54,144 nt of DNA from positions 1 through 54,144 of the forward strand of contig JANXUU010000095.1 in assembly GCA_025356055.1 (NCBI GenBank), in the 5' to 3' direction. Position numbers and translations under genes: made by a program. A model generated the notes under the pieces. It saw only the letters and a program-made list of their open reading frames with translations. It made no database searches and was not told the origin of the DNA. Positions within the stretch are counted from its first letter, which is position 1. Every line of letters begins with the position of its first letter. This document shows positions 141 through 37,262 of this stretch, piece by piece. This DNA comes from Sphingomonas sp. (GTDB lineage Bacteria > Pseudomonadota > Alphaproteobacteria > Sphingomonadales > Sphingomonadaceae).

Positions 141-1879
141 GCTTCGAAGATCGGCGCTTTCAAATTCAATAGCTCCAAAACTCTACGATCAGCACCCGAA
201 CGAATCGCATTTGTCGTGACAAAGCCAACGAGAGTGCCCGTCCGCTTCTCGCACGCAGCTTTGGCGCGCTCCAACCAATAGCAAACTAGGTTTGCACCGC
301 CCGGGACCGAGCCATGGAAGGCTTACCTAAGCGAGCCGGTGTAGGCTTCGCCGAGCTCGCGGATCATTTTCTTGTCACCGAGAAAAGGCGGATTACTGAC
401 CACCACGTCCGCCACCGGCCATTCCGCCCGCGAGCCATCTTCGTTCAGCACGGCATCCCTGCACTCAATCGTGTCGAGTGGCCGCAGTATCGGATTGCGC
501 GCAGCATCAAACCCATTGCGCCGCATCCACTGGATCTCACCGATCCACACCGACACCCGCGCCAGTTCAGCGGCGTAGGGGTTGAGTTCGATCCCCAGCA
601 CGCATTCCGGCCCGACCCTCGGGAAGCCGCGTGGCAGGCCTAACGCTTCGGCGTCGAGGTTGGCGCGATGCTCGATGTCCTTCAGCGCGCGCAACGAGAC
701 ATAGAGGAAATTTCCCGAGCCGCACGCCGGGTCGAGCACGCGGAATTGGGCGAGCCGCTCAATGAAGGCGGAATGGATCGCCGCCGCTTCGCCCAGAACC
801 TTCTCGGCCTTGCGCTTCTCGGCTGGCGAAAGCAGTTTCTCCGCCGTGCGCTTCGGCGCGCTCTCGACCAGCGCCGTGATCTTCGCCAGCGCTGCGGCCC
901 ACTCGGCCTCCAGCGGGTCGATGATCACCGGCTGGACAATCATCATGATCTTGGCGCGGTCGGTGTAGTGCGCGCCCAGCTGGCTGCGCTTGGCGGGGTC
1001 GAGACCGCGTTCGAACAAGGTGCCGAGGATCGACGGATCAATCGCCGACCAGTCGCGTCGCGCGGCGCTGAGCAGCGCCTCGATATCCTCGCCGGTGACC
1101 GGGAGCGCGTGATTGTCCTCGAACAGGCCGCCGTTGAATTAGTCGACCTTTTCAAACCCGACCTTGCCGCCTTGGCTGGCCATCGCGCCAAACAGGGTTT
1201 CGGTGTGATCCCTGAACGCCGCCGGGTCCGACCGGCTGAGTTCGAGCATTCGTGTGAACAGATTGTTTGGAAGCAATCCGACATCCTCGGCGAACATGCA
1301 GAAGACGAGCTGATTTACGAAATGGGCGACGCGCTGCGGGTCGTGTTTGCGCTCGCGCAAACGCTGGGCGAGGCCGGCGAACTCTGCGGCGGTTTCCTCG
1401 CTCAGCTCCTGCCGGGTCTTGGCGGGCTTGAAGCTGTCGGGATCGAGGAAGGCGGCGCGCAGCCGGTCGCGCTTTGCCCCGTCGAGCAAATCTTCGAGAG
1501 TGAAGTCGTGGACCTCCTGCACCGTGTTGGTCCAGTTGGTGTGGAGGCGGATGGTGTCCATGTCGGACACGATCAGCAGCGGCGGGTTTTCGAGTGCGAC
1601 GCTGTACTGGAGGAGCTGGTTGAAGGCGGCCTTCAGGTCCTTGCCCTTGCCCTTATACTCCCACGCGAAGCTGCCCTTGCGCCAGACGTCGGCCCAGCCC
1701 TCGCCGCCGCTGGTCTTGCTTGCGCCCTTTTTGAAGGTGAACCAGTCGCCCGTCGGGTCGGCCCCGATTGGATCGAGCACACCAAGCAGCGCGCACAAGT
1801 CGTTGAAGTGGCTCTGGGAGGCGGTGCGCTCCTTGAGTTCGTGGTTGCGCCACTTTTTGAGGAAGTCGTGCGGGTTCAT
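141..1879 (-). pseudogene. Decayed MmeI-like (type IIL) DNA methyltransferase/endonuclease fusion
   Basis: One frame runs from ATG at 1879 (AAGG upstream) with two in-frame TAA codons, at 1139-1141 (codon 247) and 323-325 (codon 519), and is cut by the insertion at 140. The N-terminal part has a PD-ExK-like nuclease signature (D64, E74-Y-K76). After the first stop the frame resumes with FNGGLFED, then carries methyltransferase motif I (DPACGSGNFLY) and motif IV (SNPPF). After the second stop it reads VPGGANLVCYW and FVTTNAIRSGA, both family-typical. Intact relatives are single proteins of roughly 900 residues or more that both methylate and cut DNA. The target-recognition C-terminus is absent. 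No active enzyme is expected unless the stops are sequencing errors. Confidence 0.85.
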
Positions 1880-2411
1880 CGGTCGCCTTGTAACGATCAC
1901 GCTACGTCTGACAAATAGCCCCCTGCAGACAAATAGTTTTCCTACATGGTTCGCCTGTGGTAGGGAAAATACCATGACAGTGGCTCGTCATAGTCCAGCT
2001 GCTGCGAAGCTCGGGACACGACCTATCCGGGGCGTGAAGGCTTCCGTCTTGAATGGCAATATCGCCACAACAGCGACGATCGTGACAAAGCTGACGCCCC
2101 TTAGCAGCTCATATTTCGAGGCACCGTCAAGCACGGCGACTAATATCCTGAAAACATGACAGAATTCTTACCGCCATCGGCCCGGCCCGGACCTCGCAAA
2201 ACGCCCCGCACCGTCAACCGTGTCCAAAACTCCCGCCCGACAGCCCGCGAATGTTCACAAAAACATGCTCATCAGTGCGAACATTCGGGGGTTCGCTTGC
2301 ACCCTCCCCCTTCCTCCGCGGTTGACAGCCAACGGCCCCTTGCCTAGTCGGCACGCTTTCCCGCGCGGGTCTCCCGCTGCGGTCCAGTTTCGTTGAAGAA
2401 AGAAGAAGCCA
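1880..2411. other. Intergenic stretch between the broken methyltransferase and rplU
   Basis: About 530 bases without a convincing gene. The open frames here start inside the antisense strand of the methyltransferase and have no family-like peptide. The right part (about 2320-2411) holds a sigma-70-type promoter candidate and the rplU leader. The left part probably holds the old methyltransferase promoter; nothing else was recognised. Confidence 0.6.
2322..2350 (+). promoter_or_regulatory. Candidate sigma-70 promoter of rplU-rpmA
   Basis: TTGACA at 2322-2327 is a perfect -35 box; 17 bases later comes TAGTCG (2345-2350), a weak -10. Transcription would start near 2357, giving a leader of about 55 bases before the rplU ATG. 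Position and spacing fit; the poor -10 lowers certainty. Confidence 0.5.
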
Positions 2412-2933
2412 ATGTTCGCAGTCCTGCGCACGGGCGGCAAGCAATATCGCGTTGCCCCGGGAGACAAGATCGTTGTCGAGAAGCTTGCCGGCAATGCTGG
2501 CGACCAAATCTCGTTGACCGACATCCTGCTCGCCGGCGAGGGCGCCGAGCTCAAGTCGCTCGAGGGGCTGACCGTCGGCGCCGAGATCATCGCCCAGGCG
2601 AAGGCCGACAAGGTCACCGTCTTCAAGAAACGCCGCCGCCACAATTATCGTCGCAAGGCCGGCCATCGCCAGCAACACACGATCCTGCGCATCGTCTCGA
2701 TCGGCGACCAGAAGGCGGAAAAGAAGGCTCCGGCCAAGGCCGCCGCCGCCGAGACGGCTCCGGCTTCAATCGCCGAGAAACCGGCAAAGGCGGCCAAGGC
2801 CAATGCGCCCGTCGCCAAGCCGGCGCCTAAGGCCGACGCGCCCGCCGCGAAGGCTGAAAAGCCCGCCAAAACCTCGACAAAGGATGCTGCGCCTGCTAAG
2901 GCCGCGGCCAAGAAGACCCCGAAAGCGAAGTAA
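2412..2933 (+). CDS. rplU: 50S ribosomal protein L21 with long Ala/Lys/Pro tail
   Basis: Component of the large ribosomal subunit that binds 23S rRNA. Residues 1-102 are a standard L21 (start [14 protein letters not shown], with [17 protein letters not shown] near residues 75-91). The protein is 173 residues against about 103 in the family; the extra 70 residues are a low-complexity, strongly basic tail of Ala, Lys and Pro. Such tails are known on L21 of some alphaproteobacteria. A GAAG-rich stretch just upstream serves as ribosome binding site. rpmA follows 6 bases after the stop, the usual rplU-rpmA pair, and obgE lies a short way downstream as in many bacteria. Confidence 0.97.
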
Positions 2934-2939
2934 TCCAGC

Positions 2940-3224
2940 ATGGCACATAAGAAAGCAGGCGGCTCGAGCCGCAACGGTCGCGACTCCGAATCGAAGCGCC
3001 TCGGCGTCAAGAAATTCGGCAGCGAAGCCGTTCGCGCCGGCAACATCATCGTCCGCCAGCGCGGCACGCGTGTCTATCCGGGCGCCGGCGTCGGCATCGG
3101 CAAGGACCATACGCTGTTCGCGCTGACCGACGGCCGCGTCTCGTTCAAGAGCGGGCGCCAAGGCCGCAAATTCGCGTGCGTCGATGTGATTAATATGCCG
3201 GCAGCAGCGCAAGCAGCCGAATAG
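2940..3224 (+). CDS. rpmA: 50S ribosomal protein L27
   Basis: Large-subunit protein whose N-terminal tail reaches toward the peptidyl transferase centre. The 94 residues start [16 protein letters not shown], the canonical N-terminus without the cleavable extension seen in Firmicutes, and carry the conserved [20 protein letters not shown] block. The last residues (AAAQAAE) are a short Ala-rich tail. Co-transcribed with rplU. Confidence 0.98.
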
Positions 3225-3280
3225 GGACGGTCACTTCACGGCGGCTCCACGAGGGAAAATATCTCTCGGGCCGCGGCTGG

Positions 3281-4132
3281 CTAGGAGGCAGGCTGAGCCT
3301 CATATGCTGCGATCAGCGCGCGATCGTCCTCGTTCCACGGGTGGAAGCCGGGCAGGAAGAATTTGGCCCAGGCGGCGAAAATCTTGCGCATCATCCCCGG
3401 ACGAATCCACATGTACCAGATGAGGTTCGCCCACGCCTTCACGCCGGTAATCCCGTCCTGCCTGAGCAACTCGAGCGACCCTGCCGTCCGATCGACGACG
3501 AAGTTGCGCGTGACGAGCAGCATGACCTTGGCCTTGACCTTCCAGCGCTTGGCGCGCGGCCACGCCCTGGTCGCGTGGAGCCACGTGTCATAAGCGACAC
3601 CCTTATGCTCGATTTCCTCGGTCGCGTGCCACCGCCATAAGTCGGCGGTCGCCTGGTCGGCACCGGCAAGGTGGCGTGGATCGGCGAGCAGCTCGTGGGC
3701 CAGGATCGCGGTGAAATGCTCGAGCGCCATGGTTGCCGCAAGGCTGACGATCGGCGGGCGTTCGCGGGTCAGCGCAAGGCGATCGGCGACCTTGGCCTCG
3801 AGCGGTTTCAGGTCATAACCGGCATCGGCGGCGCGGCGGTTGAACGCCAGATGCTCGCGGCTGTGGATCACCTCTTGAGTAGTGAACGCGCGAATTTCTG
3901 TCGCCAACGGCTCGGGCGCACCGTCACGGAACTTGCGCACACTCTCGACGAAATAGGCCTCGCCCAGCGGGAAGGTCGCCGACAGCGCATTGTACAGCGC
4001 GCTCGCATAAGGGTTGCCGCCGTGCCACCAGCGCGGAGTCGCCTCGTTGCGCCCGAAGCGGCGGTCGCGCGGGGTTATGGTCAGGTCTGACGGCGTCGAA
4101 CCGTCGATTCGGATGTGAGCGTTCATGCGCAT
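3281..4132 (-). CDS. PF10118-type predicted metal-dependent hydrolase
   Basis: 283 residues resembling the Metal_hydrol family (PF10118, COG3687), an all-helical protein set with a ferritin-like arrangement of Glu and His. Candidate metal ligands are visible in QEVIHSREHLAFN (about residues 87-99), in ALEHFTAILAHELL (about 135-148) and in WHATEEIEHKGVAYD (about 167-181). No characterised reaction is firmly assigned to the family. The start could be ATG at 4132 or the ATG at 4126. The gene is divergent from a TetR regulator across 76 bases that contain a perfect palindrome, so it is probably that regulator's target. It ends 56 bases from rpmA, convergently. Confidence 0.8.
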   Translation of the reverse strand: MRMNAHIRIDGSTPSDLTITPRDRRFGRNEATPRWWHGGNPYASALYNALSATFPLGEAYFVESVRKFRDGAPEPLATEIRAFTTQEVIHSREHLAFNRRAADAGYDLKPLEAKVADRLALTRERPPIVSLAATMALEHFTAILAHELLADPRHLAGADQATADLWRWHATEEIEHKGVAYDTWLHATRAWPRAKRWKVKAKVMLLVTRNFVVDRTAGSLELLRQDGITGVKAWANLIWYMWIRPGMMRKIFAAWAKFFLPGFHPWNEDDRALIAAYEAQPAS

Positions 4133-4146
4133 GATCTGGCCTTAGC

Positions 4147-4160
4147 TGACATAAATGTCA
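4147..4160. promoter_or_regulatory. Palindromic operator candidate between PF10118 gene and tetR
   Basis: TGACATAAATGTCA has perfect 6-base arms with a 2-base centre. It lies between the divergent starts at 4132 and 4209, 14 bases from the hydrolase start codon. TetR proteins bind such palindromes and often control a divergent neighbour. Binding by the adjacent regulator is inference. Confidence 0.5.
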
Positions 4161-4208
4161 ATAGCGAAGGATATGCTGCAGACACAATCGCTCGATTGCG
4201 ACTAGAGC

Positions 4209-4778
4209 ATGTCCATGATCCGCCGCCGCCAGTCCCCCGACGATGCCCGCGCCGCCGCCGTCGAGGCTGCGCATACGCTGTTGATCGAGGACGGAGTTGC
4301 CGCGGTCACCCTCAAGGCGGTTGCTGCGAAAATTAGTCGGACCCACGCCAATCTGCTCTACCACTTCGGTTCGGTCGCGGGCCTCCATCGCGCGCTGGCC
4401 GAGGAAATCGCGCGCCGCGTATCGACCTCGATCACCGCCGCGATCGCCAGCCGTCGCCGCGGCGAGGCGACCCCCCGCGATGTCGTCGACGCCATGTTCG
4501 ACGCCTTCCGCCGCGAGCGGGTCGGCGAGATGGTCGGCTGGATCGCGCTTACCCGCCAGCGAGAGGCGCTTCTGCCAGTGACCGAGACCGTCGCCGCGAT
4601 CCTCGCGGACTTCCGCGCGGCGGGGGATAGCAGGCCGATGGACAAGGTCATCCTCGGCCTCGTCCTCCTCGCCATAGGAGACAGCCTCGTCGGCGAAGAA
4701 GTCGCCGCTGCGACCGGCGACCAGCCTTCCGACGTCCGCGACATTGCCGTGATGCAGATCGCGGCGTTGATCGGCTGA
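4209..4778 (+). CDS. TetR/AcrR family transcriptional regulator
   Basis: 189 residues. The N-terminal helix-turn-helix spans about residues 12-58, with VTLKAVAAKISRTHANLLYH matching the TetR recognition region including the usual LYHHF-like end (LLYHFGS). The C-terminal ligand domain is not conserved enough to name a ligand. Divergent from the PF10118 hydrolase and probably its repressor; the palindrome at 4147-4160 is the likely site. Downstream obgE starts 38 bases after the stop, so some read-through into obgE is possible, but obgE is more likely expressed separately. Confidence 0.85.
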   Translation: MSMIRRRQSPDDARAAAVEAAHTLLIEDGVAAVTLKAVAAKISRTHANLLYHFGSVAGLHRALAEEIARRVSTSITAAIASRRRGEATPRDVVDAMFDAFRRERVGEMVGWIALTRQREALLPVTETVAAILADFRAAGDSRPMDKVILGLVLLAIGDSLVGEEVAAATGDQPSDVRDIAVMQIAALIG

Positions 4779-4815
4779 ACTTGGGTTCTCGCCGTCCTTG
4801 GACTAAGGCGCGCCG

Positions 4816-5865
4816 ATGCATTTTCTCGACCAGGCCAAGATCTTCGTCCGCTCGGGTGCCGGTGGCCCCGGCGCGGTCAGTTTCCGGCGCGAAAAGTTCG
4901 CCGAATATGGTGGCCCCAACGGAGGCCATGGCGGCAAGGGGGCGGACATCATCTTCGAGGCCGTCGCGGGGCTCAATACTCTGATCGACTTTCGCTACAC
5001 CCAGCATTTCCGCGCCCAACGGGGCAAGGGCGGCGCCGGGCAGAACCGCACCGGCGCTGGCGGCGAGGACCTGATCATCAAGGTGCCCGTCGGCACTCAA
5101 GTCCTTGCCGACGACGAGGAGCGCTCGCTGCTGATTGACATGACCGAGGTCGGCCAGCGCGTGATCCTGCTTCGCGGGGGGGACGGCGGGCGCGGCAACG
5201 CGAGCTACAAGACCTCGACCAACCGCGCCCCGCGCCAGCACGGCACCGGCTGGCCGAGCGAGGAAATGTACGTCTGGCTCAGGCTCAAGCTGATGGCCGA
5301 CGTCGGCATCGTCGGGCTGCCAAATGCCGGCAAGTCGACCCTGCTCAATCGCGTCACCAACGCCGTCGCCAAGGTCGGCGACTATCCGTTCACTACCCTC
5401 AAGCCGCAGCTCGGAGTCGTCAGCCACAAGCAGCGCGAGTTCGTCCTGGCCGACATTCCCGGCTTGATCGAGGGTGCGGCCGAGGGCGCCGGGATCGGCG
5501 ACCGTTTCCTCGGTCACGTCGAGCGCTGCCGGGCGCTGCTCCACCTCGTCGACGCCGAGGGCGAGGACCCCGTCGAGGCGTGGCGCGTCGTTCGCGGCGA
5601 ACTCGATGCCTATGGCGCGGGGCTCGAGGACAAGCCCGAGCTGATCGCGCTGAGCCGCACCGACCTGGTCGAGCCCAAGTTACTGGCCAAGATAGCCAGG
5701 AAGCTCGCCAAGGCCTCGGGCTCGACCCCGCACATCATTTCCGCCGCGACCGGCGACGGGGTCGAGCCGCTGATCGAAGCCTTGTTCGAACTCATCGGCG
5801 ACGCAGCGATTGCCGCCGCCGAGGCCGAGCCCGAACCCGCAATTCCGTGGTCGCCGCTCGCATGA
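4816..5865 (+). CDS. obgE: Obg family GTPase
   Basis: Ribosome-associated GTPase acting in 50S assembly and growth control. Residues 1-158 form the glycine-rich Obg domain (VRSGAGGPGAVSFRREKF near the start). The G domain has GLPNAGKST (P-loop, about 166-174), FTT (G2), DIPGLIEGA (G3) and ALSRTDLV in place of the usual NKxD G4 motif. The G4 Lys is Arg here and the Asn is Ser, which is unusual on general family knowledge, though relatives with Ser are known to me. 349 residues, within family range, without a long C-terminal tail. The stop overlaps the start of the following dehydrogenase gene (ATGA), implying translational coupling. Confidence 0.96.
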   Translation: MHFLDQAKIFVRSGAGGPGAVSFRREKFAEYGGPNGGHGGKGADIIFEAVAGLNTLIDFRYTQHFRAQRGKGGAGQNRTGAGGEDLIIKVPVGTQVLADDEERSLLIDMTEVGQRVILLRGGDGGRGNASYKTSTNRAPRQHGTGWPSEEMYVWLRLKLMADVGIVGLPNAGKSTLLNRVTNAVAKVGDYPFTTLKPQLGVVSHKQREFVLADIPGLIEGAAEGAGIGDRFLGHVERCRALLHLVDAEGEDPVEAWRVVRGELDAYGAGLEDKPELIALSRTDLVEPKLLAKIARKLAKASGSTPHIISAATGDGVEPLIEALFELIGDAAIAAAEAEPEPAIPWSPLA

Positions 5866-6764
5866 CGATCGCGCTGACGGGCGCGACCGGGTTCGTCGGC
5901 GGCCACGTGCTGCGCCACCTGATCGAGGTAGGCCATGACGTTCGCGCCCTGACGCGCCGGGCGCAACCGCCCGCGGCGCACGTCGAATGGATCGCCGGCG
6001 ACCTCGCCGACGGCTTCGCGCTAGACCGGCTGGTGAGCGGCTGCTCGGCGGTGATTCATGTTGCAGGCGTGCTCAACGCCTCAGACCGCGCCGGGTTCGA
6101 GACGGGCAATGTCGCGGGAACGGCGGCAATCCTCAAGGCCGCGACCAGCGCCGGCGTCCACCGCTTTGTCCACGTTTCCTCACTCACCGCGCGCGAGCCG
6201 AAGCTGTCGCTCTACGGCGCGTCGAAATCACGGTCCGAAGAAATCGTTGCGGCGAGCCCCCTGCCCTTCGCGATCGTCCGTCCACCCGCCGTCTATGGCC
6301 CCGGCGACCGCGAGACGCTCGACCTGTTCCGCATGGCCGCAAAAGGGTTCGTGCTCCTTCCTCCCGCCGGCCGCCTGTCACTGATCCACGTCGATGACCT
6401 CGCCCGCCTGCTGGTCACGCTCGCCGACCCAGCGAGCGAGAGCGGCCTCACCATCGAGCCCGACGACGGCCAGCCCCACGGCTATTCGCACCTCGAGTTT
6501 GGCCGCATGCTCGGTGTCGCGGTCGGGCGTAAGGTGCGCACGATTCCGACCCCCCAGCCCCTCCTCCGCCTCGCCGCCGGCTTCGACCGACTGGCGCGGG
6601 GAAAGGGTGCCAAGCTCACCCCCGACCGCGTCGCTTATTTCTGCCATCCCGATTGGGTTGTCTCCCCCGCCTACCCCGCCCCCGTCCTGTGGGCGCCGCG
6701 CATCGACACGATCGAAGGGCTTGATAACACCGCCGACTGGTATCGCGCCCAAGGCTGGCTGTGA
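5862..6764 (+). CDS. NAD-dependent epimerase/dehydratase, CerR-like (candidate ceramide reductase)
   Basis: 300-residue extended short-chain dehydrogenase. The Rossmann motif TGATGFVGGHVL is at residues 6-17; the catalytic pair is Y118 and K122 (LYGASKSRSEE), with SS at 106-107. It starts at an ATG overlapping the obgE stop. The next genes are an acyl carrier protein and serine palmitoyltransferase. In Caulobacter crescentus an epimerase-like dehydrogenase beside acpR and spt (the CC_1162-1164 region) is CerR, which reduces the 3-keto group during ceramide formation. By context and family I infer the same step here. NAD or NADP preference cannot be read from sequence. Confidence 0.8.
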   Translation: MTIALTGATGFVGGHVLRHLIEVGHDVRALTRRAQPPAAHVEWIAGDLADGFALDRLVSGCSAVIHVAGVLNASDRAGFETGNVAGTAAILKAATSAGVHRFVHVSSLTAREPKLSLYGASKSRSEEIVAASPLPFAIVRPPAVYGPGDRETLDLFRMAAKGFVLLPPAGRLSLIHVDDLARLLVTLADPASESGLTIEPDDGQPHGYSHLEFGRMLGVAVGRKVRTIPTPQPLLRLAAGFDRLARGKGAKLTPDRVAYFCHPDWVVSPAYPAPVLWAPRIDTIEGLDNTADWYRAQGWL

Positions 6765-6825
6765 TCCCGCCGCGGTTGTGCCCCAATTCGTTGCGAAAGC
6801 CGCCCCTCAACCTTAAGGCCAACTC

Positions 6826-7071
6826 ATGACCGACCGCGACACCACCCTCGACATCGTCCAGCGCCTGATCGAACCGTTCAACACGAAGGGCGTTGCGGTC
6901 ACCGAAGCAACACGCTTCTCGCAGGATCTTGAATGGGACAGTCTCACGGTGCTCGACTTCGTTGCCAACGTCGAGGACGAGTTCGACATCCTCATCACCA
7001 TGAACCAGCAGGCCGAGATCGAAACCGTTGGCCAGTTGGTCGACGCGGTCGCCGAGATGAAGGGCGAGTAA
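6826..7071 (+). CDS. acpR: Acyl carrier protein dedicated to sphingolipid synthesis (AcpR-like)
   Basis: 81 residues. The phosphopantetheine attachment Ser is S39 in LEWDSLTVLDFV; in housekeeping AcpP the motif is GADSLDTVE, so this is a divergent ACP. It is followed without a gap by serine palmitoyltransferase: its TAA at 7069-7071 abuts the GTG at 7072. In Caulobacter the matching ACP presents the acyl chain used in long-chain base synthesis. AAGG precedes the ATG by 7 bases. No biotin or condensation domain is attached. Name given by context. Confidence 0.88.
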   Translation: MTDRDTTLDIVQRLIEPFNTKGVAVTEATRFSQDLEWDSLTVLDFVANVEDEFDILITMNQQAEIETVGQLVDAVAEMKGE

Positions 7072-8271
7072 GTGGACGACCTGTTCTCAAAGTTTGATCC
7101 GATCATTGAAACTCGGCGAGCCTTGCTCTCGACCGGCATGACCGATCCATTCAACCTCGTGATGGAGCGGGTCGAAAGCCCGACCGTGGCGATCTGTAAC
7201 GGCCAGCGCACAATCCTGCTCGGTACCTATAACTACATGGGAATGACCTTTGACCCCGACGTGATCGAGGCGGGCAAGCAGGCGCTCGACGACTATGGCT
7301 CGGGCACGACCGGCAGCCGCGTGCTCAACGGCACCTATGCCGGGCACAAGGCCTGCGAAGAGGCACTCAAGGAATTCTACGGGATGGACCATGCGATGGT
7401 CTTCTCGACCGGTTACCAGGCCAATTTGGGGATCATCTCGACCATCGCCGGCAAGGATGACTACATCATCCTCGACATCGACAGCCACGCCTCGATCTAC
7501 GACGGCTGCGCGCTCGGCAACGCTAATATCGTGCCGTTTCGTCACAATGACATCGAGGCGCTCGAGAAGCGGCTGAAGCGCCTTCCTGAAGGTGCCAAGT
7601 CGCTGGTTATCCTCGAAGGCGTCTATTCAATGCTTGGCGACATCGCGCCGCTCAAGGAAATGGTCGCGGTTGCCAAGGCGCACGGCGCGATGGTGCTGGT
7701 CGACGAGGCGCATTCGATGGGCTTCATTGGCGAAAACGGCCGCGGGGTCGCCGAGGCGCAGGGCGTGCTCGACGACGTCGACTTCATTATCGGCACCTTC
7801 TCGAAATCGGTCGGCACGGTCGGCGGCTTCTGCGTCTCGAACCATCCCAAGTTCGAGATCCTGCGCCTTGTCTGCCGCCCCTATGTCTTCACCGCTTCGC
7901 TGCCCCCTTCGGTCGTCGCCACTGCGGCGGTTTCGATTCGTAAGCTGATGCACGGTGGCAACAAGCGCGCGCATCTGCTCGAGAATTCGAGAACTTTACA
8001 TCGCGGGCTCAAGGGCCTCGGCTTCACGCTTGGTACCGAAGAGCCGCAGTCTGCGATCATCGCGGTGATTATGCCCGACCTCCAGACCGGCGCTGCGATG
8101 TGGGAAGCGCTCCTCAACGAGGGGCTCTACGTCAACCTTGCCCGTCCGCCGGCCACGCCCGCCAACATGACACTGCTGCGCTGCTCACTGTGCGCCGAGC
8201 ATAGCACAGAGCAAGTCGAGCAGATCCTCGGCATGTTCGCCGCTGCGGGCCGTGCGACGGGCTGTATCTGA
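7072..8271 (+). CDS. spt: Serine palmitoyltransferase
   Basis: PLP enzyme of the alpha-oxoamine synthase family that condenses L-serine with an activated C16 acyl chain to 3-ketosphinganine, the first step of sphingolipid synthesis; the bacterial enzymes are soluble homodimers. 399 residues. PLP lysine K245 in GTFSKSVGTVGGF, D211 in DEAHSMGF, H139 in DSHAS. The whole chain closely matches the sphingomonad enzyme as I know it (for example LLGTYNYMGMTFDPDVI), which is about 20 residues longer at the N-terminus. The start is GTG immediately after the ACP stop, with AAGGGCGAG as ribosome binding site; no ATG fits better. Confidence 0.95.
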   Translation: MDDLFSKFDPIIETRRALLSTGMTDPFNLVMERVESPTVAICNGQRTILLGTYNYMGMTFDPDVIEAGKQALDDYGSGTTGSRVLNGTYAGHKACEEALKEFYGMDHAMVFSTGYQANLGIISTIAGKDDYIILDIDSHASIYDGCALGNANIVPFRHNDIEALEKRLKRLPEGAKSLVILEGVYSMLGDIAPLKEMVAVAKAHGAMVLVDEAHSMGFIGENGRGVAEAQGVLDDVDFIIGTFSKSVGTVGGFCVSNHPKFEILRLVCRPYVFTASLPPSVVATAAVSIRKLMHGGNKRAHLLENSRTLHRGLKGLGFTLGTEEPQSAIIAVIMPDLQTGAAMWEALLNEGLYVNLARPPATPANMTLLRCSLCAEHSTEQVEQILGMFAAAGRATGCI

Positions 8272-8324
8272 GAACAGGTCAGCTGACTCTTCCGCTTTAC
8301 GCGCCGAGGGGGTAGGCTGGCGCC

Positions 8325-10304
8325 ATGACTTCGGGGGATGACAGCAAGTTCGACTGGGGTCGCGGATGGGCCGCCGCAGGGGCGTTCGTCGCCGCTCTGA
8401 TCCTCATAACCATGGTCGTGCTGGTTGCCGTTTCCAATCAGGCGCGCGACACCGCGCTCGAGACCGAGCGCCACGCCTACGACGTTAACCTATTGACTCG
8501 CAACGTCGACGCCACCTTGCTCCGCTCACAGGCCGCGCTCGGCACTTTCGTACTCGACGAGCAGGCGCGGACCAGTGGCAACATCTACTACAGCCAGTGG
8601 CGGCTTGCCGGTGAGCAAATCGCCCAGCTTGACCGGCTGGTTACGCACGATGACGCGCAAAGCCGCCGGGTCGATCAACTCGAAAAGCTTTACGCCCAAC
8701 GCGGGATCGAATTAGCAACCGCCGCCCGCGCCGTATCGGGCAAGAATGGGACGACCGCGATTAACTTCTACTACGCGGCTACCCAGTCCCCGACTGGCCC
8801 TGCGCTCGCGGGCAAGCTGATGGAAATCGCCGACAGCGAGCGCGCCGCGCTGCAGCAGCGTATTGTCCAGACCCAGTTTTTCTCCGCTAGGGCAGACCGC
8901 CTGACCGATTATTTGAGCTGGCTTGGGGTGCTCGCCGGGATTGGCGGGATCGTACTCGGCGCGGTCGCAATCCAGGCGCTCCGCCAAAACGCTGCCGCGC
9001 GCCGGGAAGCCGACAGCGAATATGAGCGCTCTTCCGTGCTTGAACAGGCCGTCGCCGAACGCACCCGCGAACTGAGCCTCGCCAACGAGGCGCTCAAAGC
9101 CGAGGCGATCGAGCGCCAGTCGGCCGAGGCCCAACTCCGCCAAGTCCAGAAAATGGAAGCCGTCGGCCAACTGACCGGCGGAATCGCGCACGACTTTAAC
9201 AATATGCTCGCAGTCGTCGTCGGCGGAATCGACCTTGCCCGGCGCCGCCTCAACGGCCCGCGACGCGAGGTCATGGTTCACCTCACCAACGCGATGGAGG
9301 GCGCGGTGCGAGCCGCCGCGCTCACTCGCCGCCTGCTGTCTTTCGCCCGCTCTGAACCCTTGCTTCCCGAGCGGGTCGATACGTCGGCGCTCGTCGAAGG
9401 CATGTCCGACCTACTCGATCGCACACTTGGGGAGCGGGTCACCGTGCGCAACCATCTCTCGCCCGGCGCCTGGCCGACGTTTGTCGACCCGCATCAGCTC
9501 GAAAACGCAATCGTCAATCTCGCCGTCAACGCGCGCGACGCAATGGATGGAGTTGGAACGCTGGTGATCGAGACCGTCAACGTCACGCTCGGCGCCAACG
9601 CCGTCGGTGACATCCAGCCCGGCGATTATGTTCGCATTTCGGTTATCGATACCGGTACGGGCATGTCTCCCGAGACGATCGAGCGCGCGTTCGAGCCTTT
9701 CTTCACTACCAAGCCGGTCGGCAAGGGGACCGGGCTAGGGCTCAGCCAGATCTTCGGTTTCGCGCATCAGTCGGGCGGTGAGGTCGGCATCGAAAGCGAG
9801 CCCGGTCGCGGCACTTCCGTCTCGATCTATCTGCCCCGCACGGAAGTCGCAGCGACGATTCGGCTCCATCCCATGGCCCAGCGCGGCGAGGTCGAGGCGA
9901 CGGTTCCCGGCGCGCGCATCCTGCTGGTGGAGGACGACCCCCGCGTCCGATCGGCGACAATGGGCGCGCTTGAGGATCTCGATTACGAACCCATCGCCTG
10001 TTCAAGCGGGGCCGAGGCAATCAACCTGTTTGACGGGCAGATCTTCGACCTCGTCATCTCCGACGTGATCATGCCCGAGATGACCGGTCCGGAGCTCGTC
10101 CGCATCCTCAAGGCCAAGCGCGACGAGATCGCGATCCTGTTTGTCACCGGCTATGTCGGCGAGGGTGAAAGCGACGACCTCGCGGGCTACGAGTTGCTGC
10201 GCAAACCCTTTACCGTCAACGGGCTGGCGAACGCGGTTGTCGCGGCCCTTTCGCGAAGCTTCAACGAATCGCACCTGAGCGGAGGAGCCGCGGCAGCAGG
10301 CTGA
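8325..10304 (+). CDS. Hybrid sensor histidine kinase/response regulator
   Basis: 659 residues. Transmembrane helices at about 18-38 and 198-220 flank a periplasmic helical domain of about 160 residues of the CHASE3-like size. A coiled coil (about 225-275) leads to a HisKA region with H289 in [11 protein letters not shown], then an ATP-binding domain with N box ([10 protein letters not shown]), DTGTGM and GTGLGLSQ. The C-terminal receiver domain (about 525-645) has LVEDD and the phosphorylatable Asp in [11 protein letters not shown]. Signal and partner are unknown. It lies 53 bases after spt, so it may be co-transcribed with the sphingolipid genes. Its 3' end overlaps the convergent Tam41-like gene by 44 bases. 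Confidence 0.92.
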
Positions 10305-11118
10305 TCGCGGCGAGCAAGGGATGGTTGCGCTGCCACGATGTCAATTCGATTTTCGTCCCCGCGTGGCGGTTGATCTTCCACACGATATACTCGACCCCGC
10401 CGGCGTAGGTAGCGCTCGCCTTGGCGAGCCGAATGACCGAAAGCGCCTTGCCCTCTATACGGCGCCGGCCCCAGCCGCTGCGGGTGGGCGTCGCGGCGGC
10501 CAGCGCTGGGCCGGTGAATGCGCGATACCGCTCGGGGTCGGCATCGACCACGGAATTGCTGCGCGCCTTGCGCTCCGCGCGAAGCTCGGCCGAGTAGGTC
10601 AGCGCGAACGACTGGCGCCAGATGTCGATCTCATCGCTGACTGACCGGACGTAGGGCATCGCCGTGCCGAGCAGCGTCGGGGCCGCCCGGGCGACCGCCG
10701 CGATCGCCTTGGCGCGCGCCGCGTCGTTGCTCGCCCAGACCAGCCGTGACGGTTGAGCAAAGCGCGCCCATACCGAGACGTTGCGCGTTTCCGGGCCGTT
10801 GAGCCGATGAAAGTCAGCCTCGCTCAGCACGGCATATTTGGCGGCTAGGCCACCATGCTCGAAGGGGAAGACGTTGGGCGGGACGAGCTTGTTCGCGGTC
10901 GCCAGCCAGCGCTTTGGATAAGCAGCGCGATAGTCAGATACGATCAGGTAGAAATCGAGCATCAGCCCGTCGAGCTGAACCTCGCGCAAGCACGATCCAT
11001 AGAATAGCACCGCTCGGCTCGCCGCGCCATGCTTCGCCGCGATTGCCCTTGCCATCGCATCGACTCTTGGATCGACCGGTACCGCCAGCTCGGCACGGAC
11101 CAGCTGGTCGAGCGTCAT
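10261..11118 (-). CDS. Tam41-like nucleotidyltransferase (candidate CDP-lipid synthase)
   Basis: 285 residues. LFYGSCLREVQLDGLMLDFY places G41-S42 and D50/D55 in a nucleotidyltransferase-fold arrangement. A later segment, GGLAAKYAVLSEADFHRL followed by VWARFAQPSRLVW, resembles the KYGVVS...L..W...AGRLQKPV pattern of Tam41, which makes CDP-diacylglycerol from phosphatidate and CTP in mitochondria; bacterial homologues exist. It has no membrane segment of the CdsA type. It begins 4 bases after the lipid kinase stop, so the two are an operon that would make a lipid phosphate and then activate it. The substrate (phosphatidate or ceramide phosphate) is not determined. Family assignment is from motif reading only. 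Confidence 0.6.
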   Translation of the reverse strand: MTLDQLVRAELAVPVDPRVDAMARAIAAKHGAASRAVLFYGSCLREVQLDGLMLDFYLIVSDYRAAYPKRWLATANKLVPPNVFPFEHGGLAAKYAVLSEADFHRLNGPETRNVSVWARFAQPSRLVWASNDAARAKAIAAVARAAPTLLGTAMPYVRSVSDEIDIWRQSFALTYSAELRAERKARSNSVVDADPERYRAFTGPALAAATPTRSGWGRRRIEGKALSVIRLAKASATYAGGVEYIVWKINRHAGTKIELTSWQRNHPLLAAISLLPRLLRSGAIR

Positions 11119-11122
11119 GGGT

Positions 11123-12097
11123 TCAGGCAGCGAGGCGGACGAACGACAGCGGCGCGGCCGTGGTCAACCGGATCGGCTGGCCAATCTCCGCGCGGAAGGT
11201 CTCGCCGTCGAGGATGACGTCAGAGGCATGGCCTTCGATCGAAATCTCGTCGGCACCCTCGAGGTGAACACCCGCCATCTTGGTGCGGCCCAGCTTGCCG
11301 AACAGGCTCATGGTGAAGGCGCGAAGGAGGAGGAATGGACGTTGCTCGACCGCGATCAGGCGCAACCGCCCTTGCGATTGGCCACCAAGGTCATTGGTCA
11401 ACAACAATTTCTCGAGCGTTGTGACTAGCAATAGCGCAAACTTGCCCGAAATTTTGCCGTCACGGCGCACCAGGACCTTGAGCGGGGTCGGCGCGGGCGG
11501 AAGAAAACTCATTTTCAGCCCCGACAGCTGACGGAACATCAGGGCCAGCGCGGCCAACACGTGGCTGACCCCGTTGGGCAGGCCGAGCGGGTAAATCTTG
11601 TGCCTGCAATAGAGCATTGTGTCGGCCAGCCCGGCGCCGCCGAGGAACATGCCGATCACCGGTTTGCCCCCGCTGGCCCCATGGCGAAGCGCAATCAACT
11701 CGCGGGCGACGAGGTGAGAGGCGAGATCGCCCTGCGCGAGATTAACGAGCTGCTCGAGCGATTCGAGCACGTCACCATGCGCGCCGAGGTCGAGGGCGAT
11801 GAGATTAGTCTTGCCGTTGGGCAGCACCGCGACCGGCGGCGGGGAATCGCCGAAGTGGCCGCCGTTGTAGAGCTCGGTCAGCGCCGCCTGGACCGTCCCG
11901 TCGCCTCCGTTGATGACCAGCACCGCTGGCTTCACCTGCGCGATGGTGCGCAGCGCCTCGCCGATCTGCCCGACCGCCTCGACCTCATAATGAAAAATGT
12001 CCGGATGCTCGGCGCAATAGGCGCGCACCCGCGGTAGCTGCGCGACATTGCCGGTCGACTTGGGGTTCGACAGCAAGGCGATGCGCGCGCGGCCCAT
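11123..12097 (-). CDS. Diacylglycerol kinase-family lipid kinase
   Basis: 324 residues with the DAGK catalytic domain: the nucleotide-binding GGDGT at 64-68, NPKSTGN near the N-terminus and LPNGKTNLIALDLGA at about 110-124 (the usual GTxNxxA loop is changed to GKTNLIA). These soluble enzymes phosphorylate diacylglycerol, sphingoid bases or ceramide. In Caulobacter a member of this family, CpgB, is a ceramide kinase. The proximity to serine palmitoyltransferase makes a sphingolipid substrate plausible, but that is inference. Upstream on the other strand, 220 bases away, is lptF. Confidence 0.85.
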   Translation of the reverse strand: MGRARIALLSNPKSTGNVAQLPRVRAYCAEHPDIFHYEVEAVGQIGEALRTIAQVKPAVLVINGGDGTVQAALTELYNGGHFGDSPPPVAVLPNGKTNLIALDLGAHGDVLESLEQLVNLAQGDLASHLVARELIALRHGASGGKPVIGMFLGGAGLADTMLYCRHKIYPLGLPNGVSHVLAALALMFRQLSGLKMSFLPPAPTPLKVLVRRDGKISGKFALLLVTTLEKLLLTNDLGGQSQGRLRLIAVEQRPFLLLRAFTMSLFGKLGRTKMAGVHLEGADEISIEGHASDVILDGETFRAEIGQPIRLTTAAPLSFVRLAA

Positions 12098-12317
12098 CAG
12101 CCCGAGATCCTCATCAACACCGCGCAGCCGTCCGCTCTCGCCGTGGAGGCGGGCGGCAGGCTCGGCAGGACAGCGACGAATTTCCGCATGATTTTCCGGA
12201 CGGCTTCGCTATGGACGGGAACGGCCCGCCCAAGCGCGGGGACAGACCCGTTCGATAATCGAATGGCCGGGCTTTGCGGCCAAATCATGGTGTGAGGACG
12301 ACCTAATCTTGCCGGCG

Positions 12318-13526
12318 ATGATTGACCGTTACCTCGCCCGCAGCATCGCGGTCCCGCTGGTCGGCACGCTGATCATCGCGTCTATGCTGTTCGTGCTCGA
12401 CAAAATGCTGAAATTGTTCAGCTTTGTCATCGACGCTGGCGGCCCGGTGCGGATCGTGTTCCAGATGCTGGCAAATCTGCTCCCGGAATATTTTGCCCTT
12501 GGCATCCCGATCGGCCTCCTCTTGGGCATCCTCATTGCCTTCCGCAAGTTGGCAACCTCATCCGAACTGGATGCGCTTCGTGGCATTGGCGTTAGCTTCG
12601 GTCGGATGCTGCGCGTGCCCTATTTCTACGCCATCGTGCTGACCCTGCTGAACCTTGGCATCGTCGGCTATATCGAGCCGTGGGCGCGTTATCGTTATGA
12701 ACGGCTTCGCTTCGACCTCACCTCGGGCGCGCTCGGCGCGGCCATCAAAGTCGGCGAATTCAACCATCTTGGCAAACGCATGACGATGCGCGTCGAGAGC
12801 AGCGAGAAGGATGGCACCCGTTTGCGCGGCATTTTCCTGCAGGTCGACGAGAAGCCCGGCTCGATAGTTTCCGCAACTGCGGAGGAAGGGCGCTTCCTCG
12901 CCACCGATGACCCCAACACGATCCTCTTCCGCCTCAAAAAAGGCCGGTTGATTCAGCAGATGGACAAGTTCGCGACTCCGCGAAGCCTTGCCTTCGACAG
13001 TTACGACCTGCCGATCAACCTCCCCGCATTGGAGAAATTCCGCGGCCGCGGCCAGAATGAGGACGAACTCACGCTGATCGAGGTATTCCGACGCGGCTAC
13101 GCCCAGCGGCACTCCACCGACGATCGCAACCGTGCTCAGGCCAACACCAATTACCGACTCGTCGAGGCACTGATGATGCTAATGCTGCCGCTGCTGGCGG
13201 TCGCTCTCGCAGTGCCGCCCAAGCGAAGCACCTCGTCGCTCGGTATCTTCGTGGCAATCGTGATGGTCGTGACCTATCACAAGATCAACCAGTACGGCGA
13301 GCAAATGGGCGCGCAGGGTCGGCTCGATCCGCTGCTGGCGCTGTGGGGGCCGTTCCTGCTGCTGATGGCGCTGATCGGCTGGATGTACCACGTCGTCGCC
13401 CACCGCCCCGGTGGCCAGCCAATCGGCGCGCTGGAACGGTTCTTCGCCAAAATCGGAAAGTGGGTGAAGCGGCTGCTCAAGCGGCGCGATCGCGGCCTCG
13501 CCAAGGCCGAGAGGCCGGCCCAATGA
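12318..13526 (+). CDS. lptF: LPS export permease LptF
   Basis: Inner-membrane permease subunit of the LptB2FG transporter, which extracts lipopolysaccharide from the inner membrane. About 402 residues in the LptF/LptG (YjgP/YjgQ) family: N-terminal helices (MIDRYLARSIAVPLVGTL, two more to residue about 120), a periplasmic beta-jellyroll region, and three C-terminal helices. The ATG at 12318 gives the family-typical N-terminus MIDRYLAR; a TTG at 12309 with GAGG 11 bases upstream is an alternative. The stop overlaps the lptG start (ATGA). In sphingomonads that contain glycosphingolipids in the outer membrane, the cargo might not be classical LPS; this is inference. Confidence 0.92.
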   Translation: MIDRYLARSIAVPLVGTLIIASMLFVLDKMLKLFSFVIDAGGPVRIVFQMLANLLPEYFALGIPIGLLLGILIAFRKLATSSELDALRGIGVSFGRMLRVPYFYAIVLTLLNLGIVGYIEPWARYRYERLRFDLTSGALGAAIKVGEFNHLGKRMTMRVESSEKDGTRLRGIFLQVDEKPGSIVSATAEEGRFLATDDPNTILFRLKKGRLIQQMDKFATPRSLAFDSYDLPINLPALEKFRGRGQNEDELTLIEVFRRGYAQRHSTDDRNRAQANTNYRLVEALMMLMLPLLAVALAVPPKRSTSSLGIFVAIVMVVTYHKINQYGEQMGAQGRLDPLLALWGPFLLLMALIGWMYHVVAHRPGGQPIGALERFFAKIGKWVKRLLKRRDRGLAKAERPAQ

Positions 13527-14635
13527 TCAATTTCGACTTCATGCCGTCGGGCAACATCGCGCGTTACACCATGCGACTGTTTATCACCCGCACGCTGGCC
13601 GTGCTGGTGAGCCTGGTGCTCATCCTGATGACGCTCGACCTGCTTGGCGAGAGCGGCAAGATTCTCGCCGTACCAGGTAATGGTCAGGCCGAACTGGGGC
13701 ATTATGTCGTGCTTCGCCTGCCGCTGCTTATCTCGCGCTTCCTTCCCTTCTCGGCGCTGCTCGGAACGCTGATCGCCTTTGCCGGTCTGAATCAGCACAG
13801 TGAAGTCATCGCGATGAAGGCGGCAGGGATTTCAGCACACCAGATCCTTGCCCCGCTGATCGTCGCCAGCAGCATTCTTGCGCTGGTCACGTTCGCCTTC
13901 AACGAAACCGTCGTTGTTCATTCCGCGCGCACGGTGAACGCGTGGAGCGACGCGGACTATCACACTGTCCCGGCCGAAAGCGATATCCTGTCGAACGTGT
14001 GGGTCCTCGATGGGACAAACCTCGTCCGCGCCCGACACGTCGGCGGCAGCGGACGTCAGCTACACCTCGAACGGACCACCATTTACGAGCGCGACCGCGG
14101 CACATTGCAGCGTGTCATCGACGTCGCCCGTGCCGACCAGCTGCCCGGCGGTGGCGCGACGCAGGGCTGGCTGCTGCAAGGGCTGACCAGCTACGACGCG
14201 GCCCAAGGCGTGGTTAGCCACTCCGACCACGCGATCGGCCTGAAAGGCATCGACCCGCTGCGCTTCACGCTCGCGAAGGTCGATCCGACCGAACTGGATT
14301 ATTGGCAGCTCAAGCGTTCGATCGCCGAACTGGAGACCGCTGGCCGTCAAACCGACGAGGCGCGTGCCGGCCTGTGGCACAAGCTCGCCGCGCCCGCATC
14401 GACCATGTTAATGCCGCTGCTCGCCGCGATCGCTGCCTTCGGGCTCGCCCGCTCGAGGCAGGTGCTGCTGCGCGCGAGTGTCGGCATGGCGCTCGGCTTC
14501 AGTTATTTTGTGATCGACAACTTCAGTCTGTCGATGGGCAATGTAGGCATCTATCCGCCATTTCTCGCGGCCTGGGCGCCAGTTTTGCTGTTCTTCCTCA
14601 TCGGCGAGACCGTCCTCATCCGCAGCGAGGAATGA
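13523..14635 (+). CDS. lptG: LPS export permease LptG
   Basis: Second permease subunit of the Lpt transporter, 370 residues, same family and topology as LptF. The ATG at 13523 overlaps the lptF stop. The N-terminal helix follows MRLFITRTLAVLVSLVLILM; the third helix region LLISRFLPFSALLGTLIAFAGLNQHSEV carries the family-typical polar end. C-terminal helices occupy about 290-365. It ends 8 bases from the convergent desaturase gene. Confidence 0.92.
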   Translation: MINFDFMPSGNIARYTMRLFITRTLAVLVSLVLILMTLDLLGESGKILAVPGNGQAELGHYVVLRLPLLISRFLPFSALLGTLIAFAGLNQHSEVIAMKAAGISAHQILAPLIVASSILALVTFAFNETVVVHSARTVNAWSDADYHTVPAESDILSNVWVLDGTNLVRARHVGGSGRQLHLERTTIYERDRGTLQRVIDVARADQLPGGGATQGWLLQGLTSYDAAQGVVSHSDHAIGLKGIDPLRFTLAKVDPTELDYWQLKRSIAELETAGRQTDEARAGLWHKLAAPASTMLMPLLAAIAAFGLARSRQVLLRASVGMALGFSYFVIDNFSLSMGNVGIYPPFLAAWAPVLLFFLIGETVLIRSEE

Positions 14636-14643: not shown

Positions 14644-15744
14644 CTAGCGCGCAGCCCCGCGTCGCCACGAGCTCGCGGCGAGCCGACCAATCAGCGGACG
14701 CAGCCCGCGATGGCTCGACGCGTGGTAGACACTATCTTCGCCAAGCTCGTTGCATAGACGACGATGTGCCTTGCCGAGCGCGTGGTAAGGAACGCTCGGA
14801 AGCAGATGATGGAGTCCGTGGTAGCGCAAGCCCACCGGCGCCCATAGCTCGGGCAGCGAACCCGGTGGGGGCACGTTGACGCTGTCGAGATATTGCGCGG
14901 TGACGCTCATCGCATCACCCTCATTCTCCCACAGATGCGCGACTAGCGTGCGAACCTGGTTGAGCAGCATTACGCCTGACGCAACGGCGAGGAAGATCGC
15001 AAACAGCCGCAGCGGGATGGCACCGGAGACGACCAGCGCAACAAGGCTGATCGCCCACAGGCTTGCGGCCCCTTCCTGCCAACGCCAATGGTCGGCGAGG
15101 ACGCCTTCGGCCGGGCGGCGGCGGAATTCGGGGTTGATCTGCAGCCCCGAGAAACGCTCGACGACGACCGTCCGCAACCGCTTCGACAGCAGCGACAGTG
15201 GAGCCACCACGGCAAAGCGGAAGATCAGTGCGACGGGCGCAAGGATCGACGCGACGACGAACAGGGGCAACGTCCATGGCCGCATCAGCGCCAGCGGGAG
15301 ATATTCGGGATCCTCGACCGTGCCATAGCGCGTCTTGGCGTGATGGAGCGTGTGCACGCCCTCATAAAGGAAGCTCGGCACCAGCAGCGGCACGCCGACG
15401 ATCGCATTCCAGCCCAGTCGAAAACCGGGGACCGCATTCGGGCGGAGATGGGTGAGCTCGTGGATGAAGCTACCCGCGCGATAGAGGGCGAGGATCGACA
15501 CAATCCCCGTAAGGATCGCAATCGGCGTCGAGTGAAGCGTCATCGCCCCAGCCAGCGCGACATAGCCAAGCGTCGCCGACCCGAGCATGTCAGCCCAGTA
15601 TATCCGCGGATTCGCTGTGCTGTGGTCGCGAGTCACGTTGGCAGCGGCGCGGAGTAGCGCCTTGTCATCGGCACGCCCCGACGAACGCTGCGGCGAAGGC
15701 GCGGGATGCGCGTTGTCGCGCTCAAGGGAAGTCATCTGGTTCAT
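14644..15744 (-). CDS. Membrane fatty acid desaturase
   Basis: 366 residues in the membrane FA_desaturase family, which uses a di-iron centre held by histidine boxes. Visible boxes: HELTH (about residue 97), HTLHH (about 133) and HGLHH (about 317). Four or more hydrophobic helices surround them. Substrate (acyl-lipid, carotenoid or sphingoid base) cannot be told from the sequence. Start chosen at the ATG at 15744 (MNQMTSLERD); the ATG at 15735 is also possible. Convergent with lptG, and 71 bases downstream of the DUF445 gene. Confidence 0.85.
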   Translation of the reverse strand: MNQMTSLERDNAHPAPSPQRSSGRADDKALLRAAANVTRDHSTANPRIYWADMLGSATLGYVALAGAMTLHSTPIAILTGIVSILALYRAGSFIHELTHLRPNAVPGFRLGWNAIVGVPLLVPSFLYEGVHTLHHAKTRYGTVEDPEYLPLALMRPWTLPLFVVASILAPVALIFRFAVVAPLSLLSKRLRTVVVERFSGLQINPEFRRRPAEGVLADHWRWQEGAASLWAISLVALVVSGAIPLRLFAIFLAVASGVMLLNQVRTLVAHLWENEGDAMSVTAQYLDSVNVPPPGSLPELWAPVGLRYHGLHHLLPSVPYHALGKAHRRLCNELGEDSVYHASSHRGLRPLIGRLAASSWRRGAAR

Positions 15745-36488: not shown

Positions 36489-37262
36489 ATGAAAATTGCG
36501 ACCTACAACGTCAACGGCATCCGCGCCCGCCTTCCCCGCCTGCTCGACTGGCTGGAGCGCGAGGCCCCCGACGTCGCCTGCCTCCAGGAACTCAAATGCG
36601 CCGATGATTCGCTCCCCATCGGCGACATCGAGGCGGCGGGCTACGGCGCGGTGTGGCACGGCCAGAAGGGCTTCAACGGAGTTGCCATTCTGGCGAAGGG
36701 CGACTCGCCGGCATTGCGCCAGGTCGGCCTTCCCGGCGATCCCGACGACAGCCACAGCCGCTATATCGAGGCCGAGGTCGCGGGCACGGTCGTCGCCTCG
36801 CTGTACCTTCCCAACGGCAACCCGGTCGGCACCGAAAAGTTCGTCTACAAACTCGCCTGGATGGAGCGGCTGCGCACCCACGCCGCCGCCCTGCTCGCCG
36901 AGGAAAAGCCGACGATCCTCGCCGGCGACTGGAACGTCATCCCCGAAGACCGCGACGTTTTCTCCGCCAAGGCTGTCGCGAAAGACGCCCTCATCCAGCC
37001 CGAAACCCGCGCCGCCTATCGCCAGATTCTCTACCAGGGCTGGACCGACGCCCTGCGTGCGCTCCACCCGCACGACCCCAAGCTGTGGACCTTCTGGGAT
37101 TACACCATGGGCGCGTGGCAGCGCGACCTCGGCTTCCGCATCGACCACCTCCTGTGCAGCCCGCAAGCCGTCGACCGCCTCCGCGCCGCCGGCGTCGATC
37201 GCTGGCCCCGCGGCGAGGAAAAGGCGAGCGACCACACCCCCGTCTGGATCGATCTCGCCTAA
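36489..37262 (+). CDS. xth: Exodeoxyribonuclease III
   Basis: 257 residues of the exonuclease/endonuclease/phosphatase family; AP endonuclease and 3' to 5' exonuclease in base excision repair. Marks: MKIATYNVNGIRARL start, metal-binding Glu in CLQELKCAD, GDWNVIPEDRD, and the final His in SDHTPVWID. The ATG follows a hairpin with no separate ribosome site. The stop overlaps the stop of the convergent GNAT-fold gene. Confidence 0.95.
   Translation: MKIATYNVNGIRARLPRLLDWLEREAPDVACLQELKCADDSLPIGDIEAAGYGAVWHGQKGFNGVAILAKGDSPALRQVGLPGDPDDSHSRYIEAEVAGTVVASLYLPNGNPVGTEKFVYKLAWMERLRTHAAALLAEEKPTILAGDWNVIPEDRDVFSAKAVAKDALIQPETRAAYRQILYQGWTDALRALHPHDPKLWTFWDYTMGAWQRDLGFRIDHLLCSPQAVDRLRAAGVDRWPRGEEKASDHTPVWIDLA

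Follow-up and report, generated by a model that had tools for sequence, protein, structure and literature searches.

A Tam41-like protein encoded beside a CpgB-type kinase in Sphingomonas is a candidate cytidylyltransferase of phosphosphingolipid synthesis

Results

We analyzed a 54,144-nucleotide stretch of DNA from Sphingomonas sp. (assembly GCA_025356055.1, contig JANXUU010000095.1; the whole stretch is called the window here) and focused on two adjoining genes on its minus strand, which we designate cpgB and cpgC after the Caulobacter crescentus genes whose order they share. The first (11123–12097, ATG start) encodes a lipid kinase of 324 residues that matches DAGK_cat (PF00781, E 5.6e-14), carries the GGDGT motif of the diacylglycerol kinase (DAGK) catalytic domain at residue 64 and is assigned by synteny as a putative CpgB-type ceramide kinase. 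The second (10261–11118, ATG start) begins 4 bases past the kinase stop and encodes a 285-residue protein with FYGS at residues 39–42 and an aspartate at residue 55. Its Kyte-Doolittle hydropathy peaks at only 1.18 over any 19-residue stretch, so no membrane span is expected. The original prediction, made from the DNA sequence alone, had described a DAGK-family kinase followed 4 bases later by a soluble protein with GS...D nucleotidyltransferase residues, and both descriptions were borne out. It had also placed the pair close to serine palmitoyltransferase (SPT); the spt gene is indeed close (7072–8271) but does not directly adjoin the pair, since an open reading frame (ORF) at 8325–10304 lies between. 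The end of this convergent plus-strand ORF overlaps the 3′ end of cpgC by 44 bases. Tam41 has a C-terminal amphipathic helix, positively charged, that binds membranes; in the 285-residue protein, residues 216–285 bear a net charge of +10, and its highest hydrophobic moment is 0.49 (residues 266–283), though an internal stretch reaches 0.48. Searches of Pfam and NCBIfam gave no model match to this protein.

We found 128 relatives of the 285-residue protein in genome contigs. The best 80 match most or all of its length at 57–80% identity, and the ORF is thus not a chance reading. Among the loci of these 80, which come from named genome records, are from sphingomonads wherever a lineage is given and are in some cases clipped at contig ends, 50 contain the kinase, 69 contain SPT, and 71 contain a histidine-kinase-like gene; LptF was found in 48, as was LptG. 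The gap between the kinase and CpgC was less than 150 bases in 46 of the 48 loci where it could be measured, and for the 30 loci that have no kinase close by, every genome encodes it at another site. In those 30 loci (L026, L028 and 28 more, mostly Sphingobium), cpgC stands with the histidine-kinase-like gene and spt, and lptFG falls outside the stretch examined. A profile search of 385 Alphaproteobacteria genomes detected a CpgC protein in 42, and we read the loci of 29 of the 41 other than our own. The kinase adjoins CpgC in 26 of these 29 distant loci, and SPT is visible in the short stretch of 20. These results indicate that the gene pair is a real, conserved module, and the order of kinase, CpgC, and an opposing spt is seen repeatedly in Alphaproteobacteria. 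A lack of pair conservation, which would have told against the original prediction, was not observed.

The window kinase resembles kinases that accompany CpgC in distant genomes. In BLAST comparisons, the window kinase matched the cpgC-adjoining kinases of L117, L121, and L123 with E values of 8.6e-19 to 5.8e-40 and that of L124 with 7.5e-9, whereas the other DAGK-family protein of the genome (L081) matched the kinases of the window, L117, L121, and L123 at E 0.001–0.005 only. Locus L124 is on a plasmid (Roseomonas mucosa p1-HV1, 1634–11588) that holds together a DAGK-family kinase, CpgC (annotated “hypothetical protein”), a CDP-alcohol transferase, LptF/LptG family permeases, and an SPT-like pyridoxal phosphate enzyme. 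Among 17 plasmid records with CpgC, of which one was inspected, 13 are from Roseomonas and 2 from Pseudomonas.

The distant loci link the pair to a known system. Locus L117 reads in the order short-chain dehydrogenase/reductase (SDR), acyl carrier protein (ACP)-like, SPT, CpgC, kinase, CpgA-like CDP-alcohol transferase, metallophosphoesterase, LptF, and LptG, with ACP-like ORFs judged by eye. In C. crescentus, the ceramide genes run to CC_1162 (spt) and are followed by CC_1161, CC_1160, CC_1159, CC_1158, and then LptF2/LptG2 (CC_1156 and CC_1155) (PMC11324152; here and below, published work is cited from the available parts of each paper). Since the two orders agree, the second protein corresponds to CpgC (CC_1161/CCNA_01219), whose gene neighbors cpgB, converges with spt, and shares its cluster with SDR, ACP, and lptFG genes, and the kinase corresponds to CpgB (CC_1160/CCNA_01218). 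The pair is therefore best read as the sphingomonad version of cpgB-cpgC. The kinase shares with C. crescentus CpgB its DAGK type and its place directly upstream of cpgC in the published order of the cluster for ceramide phosphoglycerate (CPG), and it is 25–34% identical to the kinases of distant cpg clusters, a comparison that does not include C. crescentus CpgB itself. The second protein shares with C. crescentus CpgC its position, with cpgB on one side and a convergent spt on the other, and it is 42–46% identical to the protein in the same place in L117, L118, and L119. Unlike C. crescentus, this locus has a histidine-kinase-like gene between cpgC and spt, and CpgA was not found in the genome, so CPG without CPG2 would be expected here.

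The fold of CpgC was examined with an AlphaFold2 model built with 25 family members (mean pLDDT, the model's per-residue confidence score, 86.4). Foldseek placed a Firmicutes Tam41 bound to CTP-Mg (7ecd) first among PDB structures (E 1.4e-6), followed by Schizosaccharomyces pombe Tam41. VIA-align gave Z 16.5 to 7ecd (215 aligned residues, root-mean-square deviation 3.1 Å, about 15% identity by structure) and Z 13.7 to S. pombe Tam41 (6ig2/6ig4). The part aligned with 7ecd lies between residues 13 and 238 and includes both domains, a nucleotidyltransferase fold and a second helical/winged-helix domain as in Tam41 (domain layout from PMC7018664); the last 47 residues fall outside it. The Tam41-like character that had been suggested from short segments is thus supported by structure prediction, and the absence of a nucleotidyltransferase fold, which would have told against it, was not observed.

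A nucleotidyltransferase might instead act on a different nucleotide, a protein, or a small molecule, with CPG affected indirectly. The fold is versatile, and aminoglycoside nucleotidyltransferases and the antitoxin MntA match the model at Z of about 6 to 7.7, the best non-Tam41 structure being an aminoglycoside-modifying nucleotidyltransferase (Z 7.7 over 113 residues). However, these matches mostly cover 90–120 residues, largely of the first domain, against the 215 of 7ecd, and the tight pairing of CpgC with the kinase and SPT also argues against a remote target, which we consider very unlikely.

The motifs of CpgC agree with the Tam41 fold. In a diverse set of 12 family members (A3), YGS (residues 40–42) and D55-F-Y57 are invariant in all 12, where Tam41 has D-x-[I/V/L]. 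Only this single acid of the three usual in the fold is evident; Tam41 likewise has just one of the three catalytic acids (PMC11646218), whereas most nucleotidyltransferases have D-x-D. A profile-profile comparison of A3 with three Tam41 sequences, one of them entered by hand, gave a probability of 70.7 over 168 columns at 21% identity and aligned YGS 40–42, D55, K94-Y95, R119, F120, P123, and Y175-x-x-[DE]-x-R, with WARFxQP in the family for GRFQKP in Tam41 and TYxxELR for SYxGDxR. With 25 close relatives alone (A1), the comparison was weak (probability 11.8). Because the pairwise E values of this comparison are uncalibrated, the case for Tam41 likeness rests mainly on the structural match.

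A check against the Tam41 family profile, which the original prediction had proposed, came out negative: PF09139 matched none of the 25 A1 and none of the 12 A3 members, even at E 10, and neither this genome nor the control genomes contained a match. Nor did any Tam41 match emerge when single sequences or a profile were searched against Pfam, NCBIfam, and the sequences in the PDB. We therefore class CpgC as Tam41-like by fold, outside PF09139. With Tam41 (TAMM41) it shares the two-domain build, YGS, the single acid, KY, RFx[QK]P, Yxx[DE]xR, and the lack of a membrane span; unlike Tam41, it lacks about 17 residues before the GVYYN segment and is linked to sphingolipid genes rather than to cardiolipin. 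The usual bacterial CDP-diacylglycerol synthase, CdsA, would catalyze the same type of reaction, between CTP and a lipid phosphate, but is an integral membrane protein unrelated to Tam41 in both sequence and structure (PMC7018664), and neither a match to its family (PF01148, CTP_transf_1) nor membrane spans were seen in CpgC. Taken together, the orthology of the pair to CpgB and CpgC and the Tam41 fold of the latter are very probably both correct.

We next considered the association of CpgC with sphingolipid synthesis. To decide where SPT is present, we relied on a clear break in the scores: 49 of the 385 genomes reach at least 362 bits, and the one that follows reaches 277. The threshold set in the tool would admit 337 genomes, mostly through related enzymes. 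By the score break, SPT is present in 41 of the 42 CpgC genomes (Fisher p 6e-46, a value that ignores the relatedness of the genomes and is not a true probability), and CpgC lies at most 5 kb from SPT in 28 of the 42, with opposite strands in 27.

Published genetics points in the same direction. CpgB of C. crescentus is a proven ceramide kinase (PMC10331486). No CPG is found in mutants of CC_1161 or of CC_1159/CC_1160, and CC_1160 alone restores CPG to the latter, whereas CC_1152 and CC_1153 mutants still produce it (PMC11324152). CpgD (CCNA_01210), a CTP:phosphoglycerate cytidylyltransferase, produces CDP-glycerate; a strain deleted for it loses CPG2 and still makes CPG (PMC12275187). CpgD is thus, like the activity proposed for CpgC, a cytidylyltransferase of the same pathway, but its reported relatives are inositol- and choline-phosphate cytidylyltransferases, it acts on the head group, and it is dispensable for CPG (PMC12275187). 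CpgC is required for CPG, by a mechanism called unidentified in the available parts of PMC12275187 and PMC13228409.

These data bear on a soluble phosphatidate route, in which the kinase would make phosphatidate from diacylglycerol and the Tam41-like protein would convert it to CDP-diacylglycerol, as Tam41 does in mitochondria and Firmicutes. The nearest solved structures are CDP-diacylglycerol synthases, and CpgB phosphorylates diacylglycerol comparably in vitro (PMC10331486). On the other hand, CdsA is encoded separately in this genome, which disfavors CpgC as a plain CDP-diacylglycerol synthase; CpgC tracks SPT; deletion of cpgB leaves phosphatidate unchanged (PMC10331486); and deletion of CC_1161 abolishes CPG (PMC11324152). 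We regard the phosphatidate route as improbable.

The spt gene (7072–8271, plus strand, GTG start as listed) encodes the enzyme of the first step of sphingolipid synthesis and scores 799.4 bits with NF047603 against a cut-off of 670. Upstream of it on the same strand, an SDR/epimerase gene (5862–6764, ATG read from the translation; PF01370, E 5.9e-25, searched as 5859–6764) is a candidate CerR-like reductase by position and similarity, being 39–45% identical to the SDR that lies a short way upstream of spt in clusters L117, L118, L119, L121, and L123 of distant genomes. The ORF at 8325–10304 reads from its translation as a hybrid histidine kinase/receiver. Its homologue is the gene found in 71 of the 80 sphingomonad loci, where it adjoins cpgC, usually between cpgC and spt; it may be a regulator of sphingolipid synthesis or a passenger.

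Divergent from cpgB on the plus strand are lptF (12309–13526, first start codon TTG; PF03739, E 7.1e-66) and lptG (13523–14635, 370 residues from the ATG at 13523; PF03739, E 2.7e-68 in a search of the genome itself), the only such pair found in the genome. A fatty-acid desaturase/hydroxylase family gene follows (14644–15735, minus strand; PF00487, E 8.8e-25); it occurs in 28 of the 80 sphingomonad loci and is a candidate sphingolipid acyl hydroxylase, likened to CC_0202 by the description in PMC11324152 and not by sequence. Farther away, a minus-strand gene (37259–38395) encodes a GNAT-like protein with 45.7% and 44.3% identity to the GNAT-like genes of the distant cpg clusters L123 and L122 and an Acetyltransf_1 match slightly below the cut-off; it is a candidate for the bacterial ceramide synthase, which we take to be CerS.

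No LpxC was found in this genome, which is 97% complete; 4 of 14 control genomes matched. Together with the position of the sole LptF-LptG pair found, beside cpgB, this suggests the Lpt bridge as a sphingolipid carrier, and the two proteins probably carry the completed sphingolipid out to the outer membrane of a cell without a detected LpxC. The CerR-like, CerS-like, and desaturase-family genes and the lack of a detected LpxC would fit a replacement of lipopolysaccharide by sphingolipids carried over the Lpt bridge.

Discussion

The cpgB-cpgC pair is probably the entry to phosphosphingolipid head groups, with CpgB, CpgC, and then a further enzyme acting in turn. CpgB would convert ceramide and ATP to ceramide-1-phosphate, as has been shown in Caulobacter; CpgC, as a Tam41-fold peripheral enzyme, would transfer CMP from CTP to ceramide-1-phosphate, releasing pyrophosphate; and glycerate or phosphoglycerate would displace CMP to give CPG. 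Since CPG forms in the absence of CpgD, that enzyme is not what activates the head group beforehand. Joining glycerate to ceramide phosphate needs energy, and activation of the ceramide phosphate is therefore the simplest answer. Because the fold of CpgC is that of an enzyme that activates phosphatidate, we infer a route from ceramide through ceramide-1-phosphate and CDP-ceramide to CPG. CDP-ceramide is the best-supported product of CpgC, and we favor it with moderate confidence.

The original prediction had regarded CDP-ceramide as an intermediate that would be new in bacteria. The pair itself is not new: it corresponds to cpgB-cpgC of Caulobacter, and a 2024 paper reports an InterPro CDP-diacylglycerol-synthase domain in CC_1161 and proposes an “NDP-activated ceramide” (PMC11324152); the word Tam41 is not used in the available part of that paper. 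The literature searched, which lacks most subscription papers so that absence is no proof, contained no mention of CDP-ceramide and no paper on Tam41 together with Caulobacter. What is new here is the Tam41 fold of CpgC and its genome context, namely that neither LpxC nor CpgA was found, that one LptFG pair lies beside cpgB, and that several CpgC genomes have no spare CDP-alcohol transferase.

CpgA was rejected as the enzyme that would use CDP-ceramide here, as it had no match in this genome at E 1e-5. Among the 42 CpgC genomes, 23 have a strong CpgA match (at least 265 bits), G334 a weak one (26 bits), and 18 none; of the 8 genomes with SPT and no CpgC, G246 has a weak match (33 bits) and 7 have none. 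In some genomes, two further CpgA-like CDP-alcohol transferases occur in or near the cluster besides CpgA (L117 17615–18826 and G263:C4:302615–303418), and these possibly serve longer or different head groups. Of the 19 CpgC genomes that lack a strong CpgA match, 17 were examined for CDP-alcohol transferases of PF01066; 7 hold just two such proteins, and the other 10 hold 3–5. In 6 of the 7, one protein resembles PgsA and the other PssA in score and size, as judged by comparison with other genomes and not by an assigning search; the second protein looks different in G159. Our genome encodes an unusual third CDP-alcohol phosphatidyltransferase (G000:C124:21142–21831). Among the other 384 genomes, 3 have a clear relative of it and 2 a weak one. 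This protein was rejected as a CPG synthase, since relatives at E 1e-6 occur in 6 of the 385 genomes, of which two (our own and G039) have CpgC.

The finishing step in CPG synthesis would thus fall to PgsA or PssA accepting CDP-ceramide, to an enzyme outside PF01066 or undetected, or to CpgC itself. Glycerate is the hydroxyl analogue of serine, which makes PssA a natural candidate for making CPG. One may tentatively suppose, as a rather doubtful extension, that where CpgA is lacking and just two CDP-alcohol transferases, PgsA-like and PssA-like, are present, these accept the CDP-ceramide made by the Tam41-fold enzyme, so that glycerophospholipid machinery is borrowed for sphingolipid head groups.

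If CpgC itself finished the reaction, it would activate ceramide-1-phosphate through a transient nucleotide and then join glycerate or phosphoglycerate, and free CDP-ceramide would never accumulate. The literature consulted names for CPG just cpgB, cpgC, and ceramide synthesis (PMC11324152 and PMC12275187, in their available parts), and such a route would remove the missing-transferase problem of the genomes with just two PF01066 proteins. However, the matched Tam41 structures are plain cytidylyltransferases, and family searches (Pfam and NCBIfam) found no additional transferase domain in CpgC, though the best alignment leaves out its last 47 residues. We consider this one-enzyme route unlikely.

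Several observations weigh against CDP-ceramide formation by this pair. The orthology with C. crescentus CpgC rests on gene order and not on that protein's own sequence, PF09139 does not match the family, and the literature searched yielded no activity data for CpgC. CpgB accepts diacylglycerol as well as ceramide in vitro. Three of the 29 distant loci (L103, at a short contig end, L109, and L110) showed no kinase next to CpgC; the CpgC genome G334 is without a clear SPT; and 8 of the 49 SPT genomes, two of them from the same family as this genome, are without CpgC. Finally, we found no CDP-alcohol transferase dedicated to CDP-ceramide, and 7 of the 17 genomes counted among those with CpgC but no strong CpgA match hold no PF01066 protein beyond two. 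The missing finishing enzyme is the main weakness of the CDP-ceramide proposal and also its most testable consequence.

The conversion of ceramide phosphate to CPG is a gap in the Caulobacter pathway, and the Tam41 fold of CpgC points to one specific reaction to fill it. Phosphosphingolipids help Caulobacter survive without lipopolysaccharide. If the proposal is true, activation by CDP would be extended from glycerolipids to sphingolipids, and it would explain the job of the cpgB-cpgC pair in sphingomonads like the one studied here, whose genome yielded no LpxC and a single LptF-LptG pair, next to the kinase.

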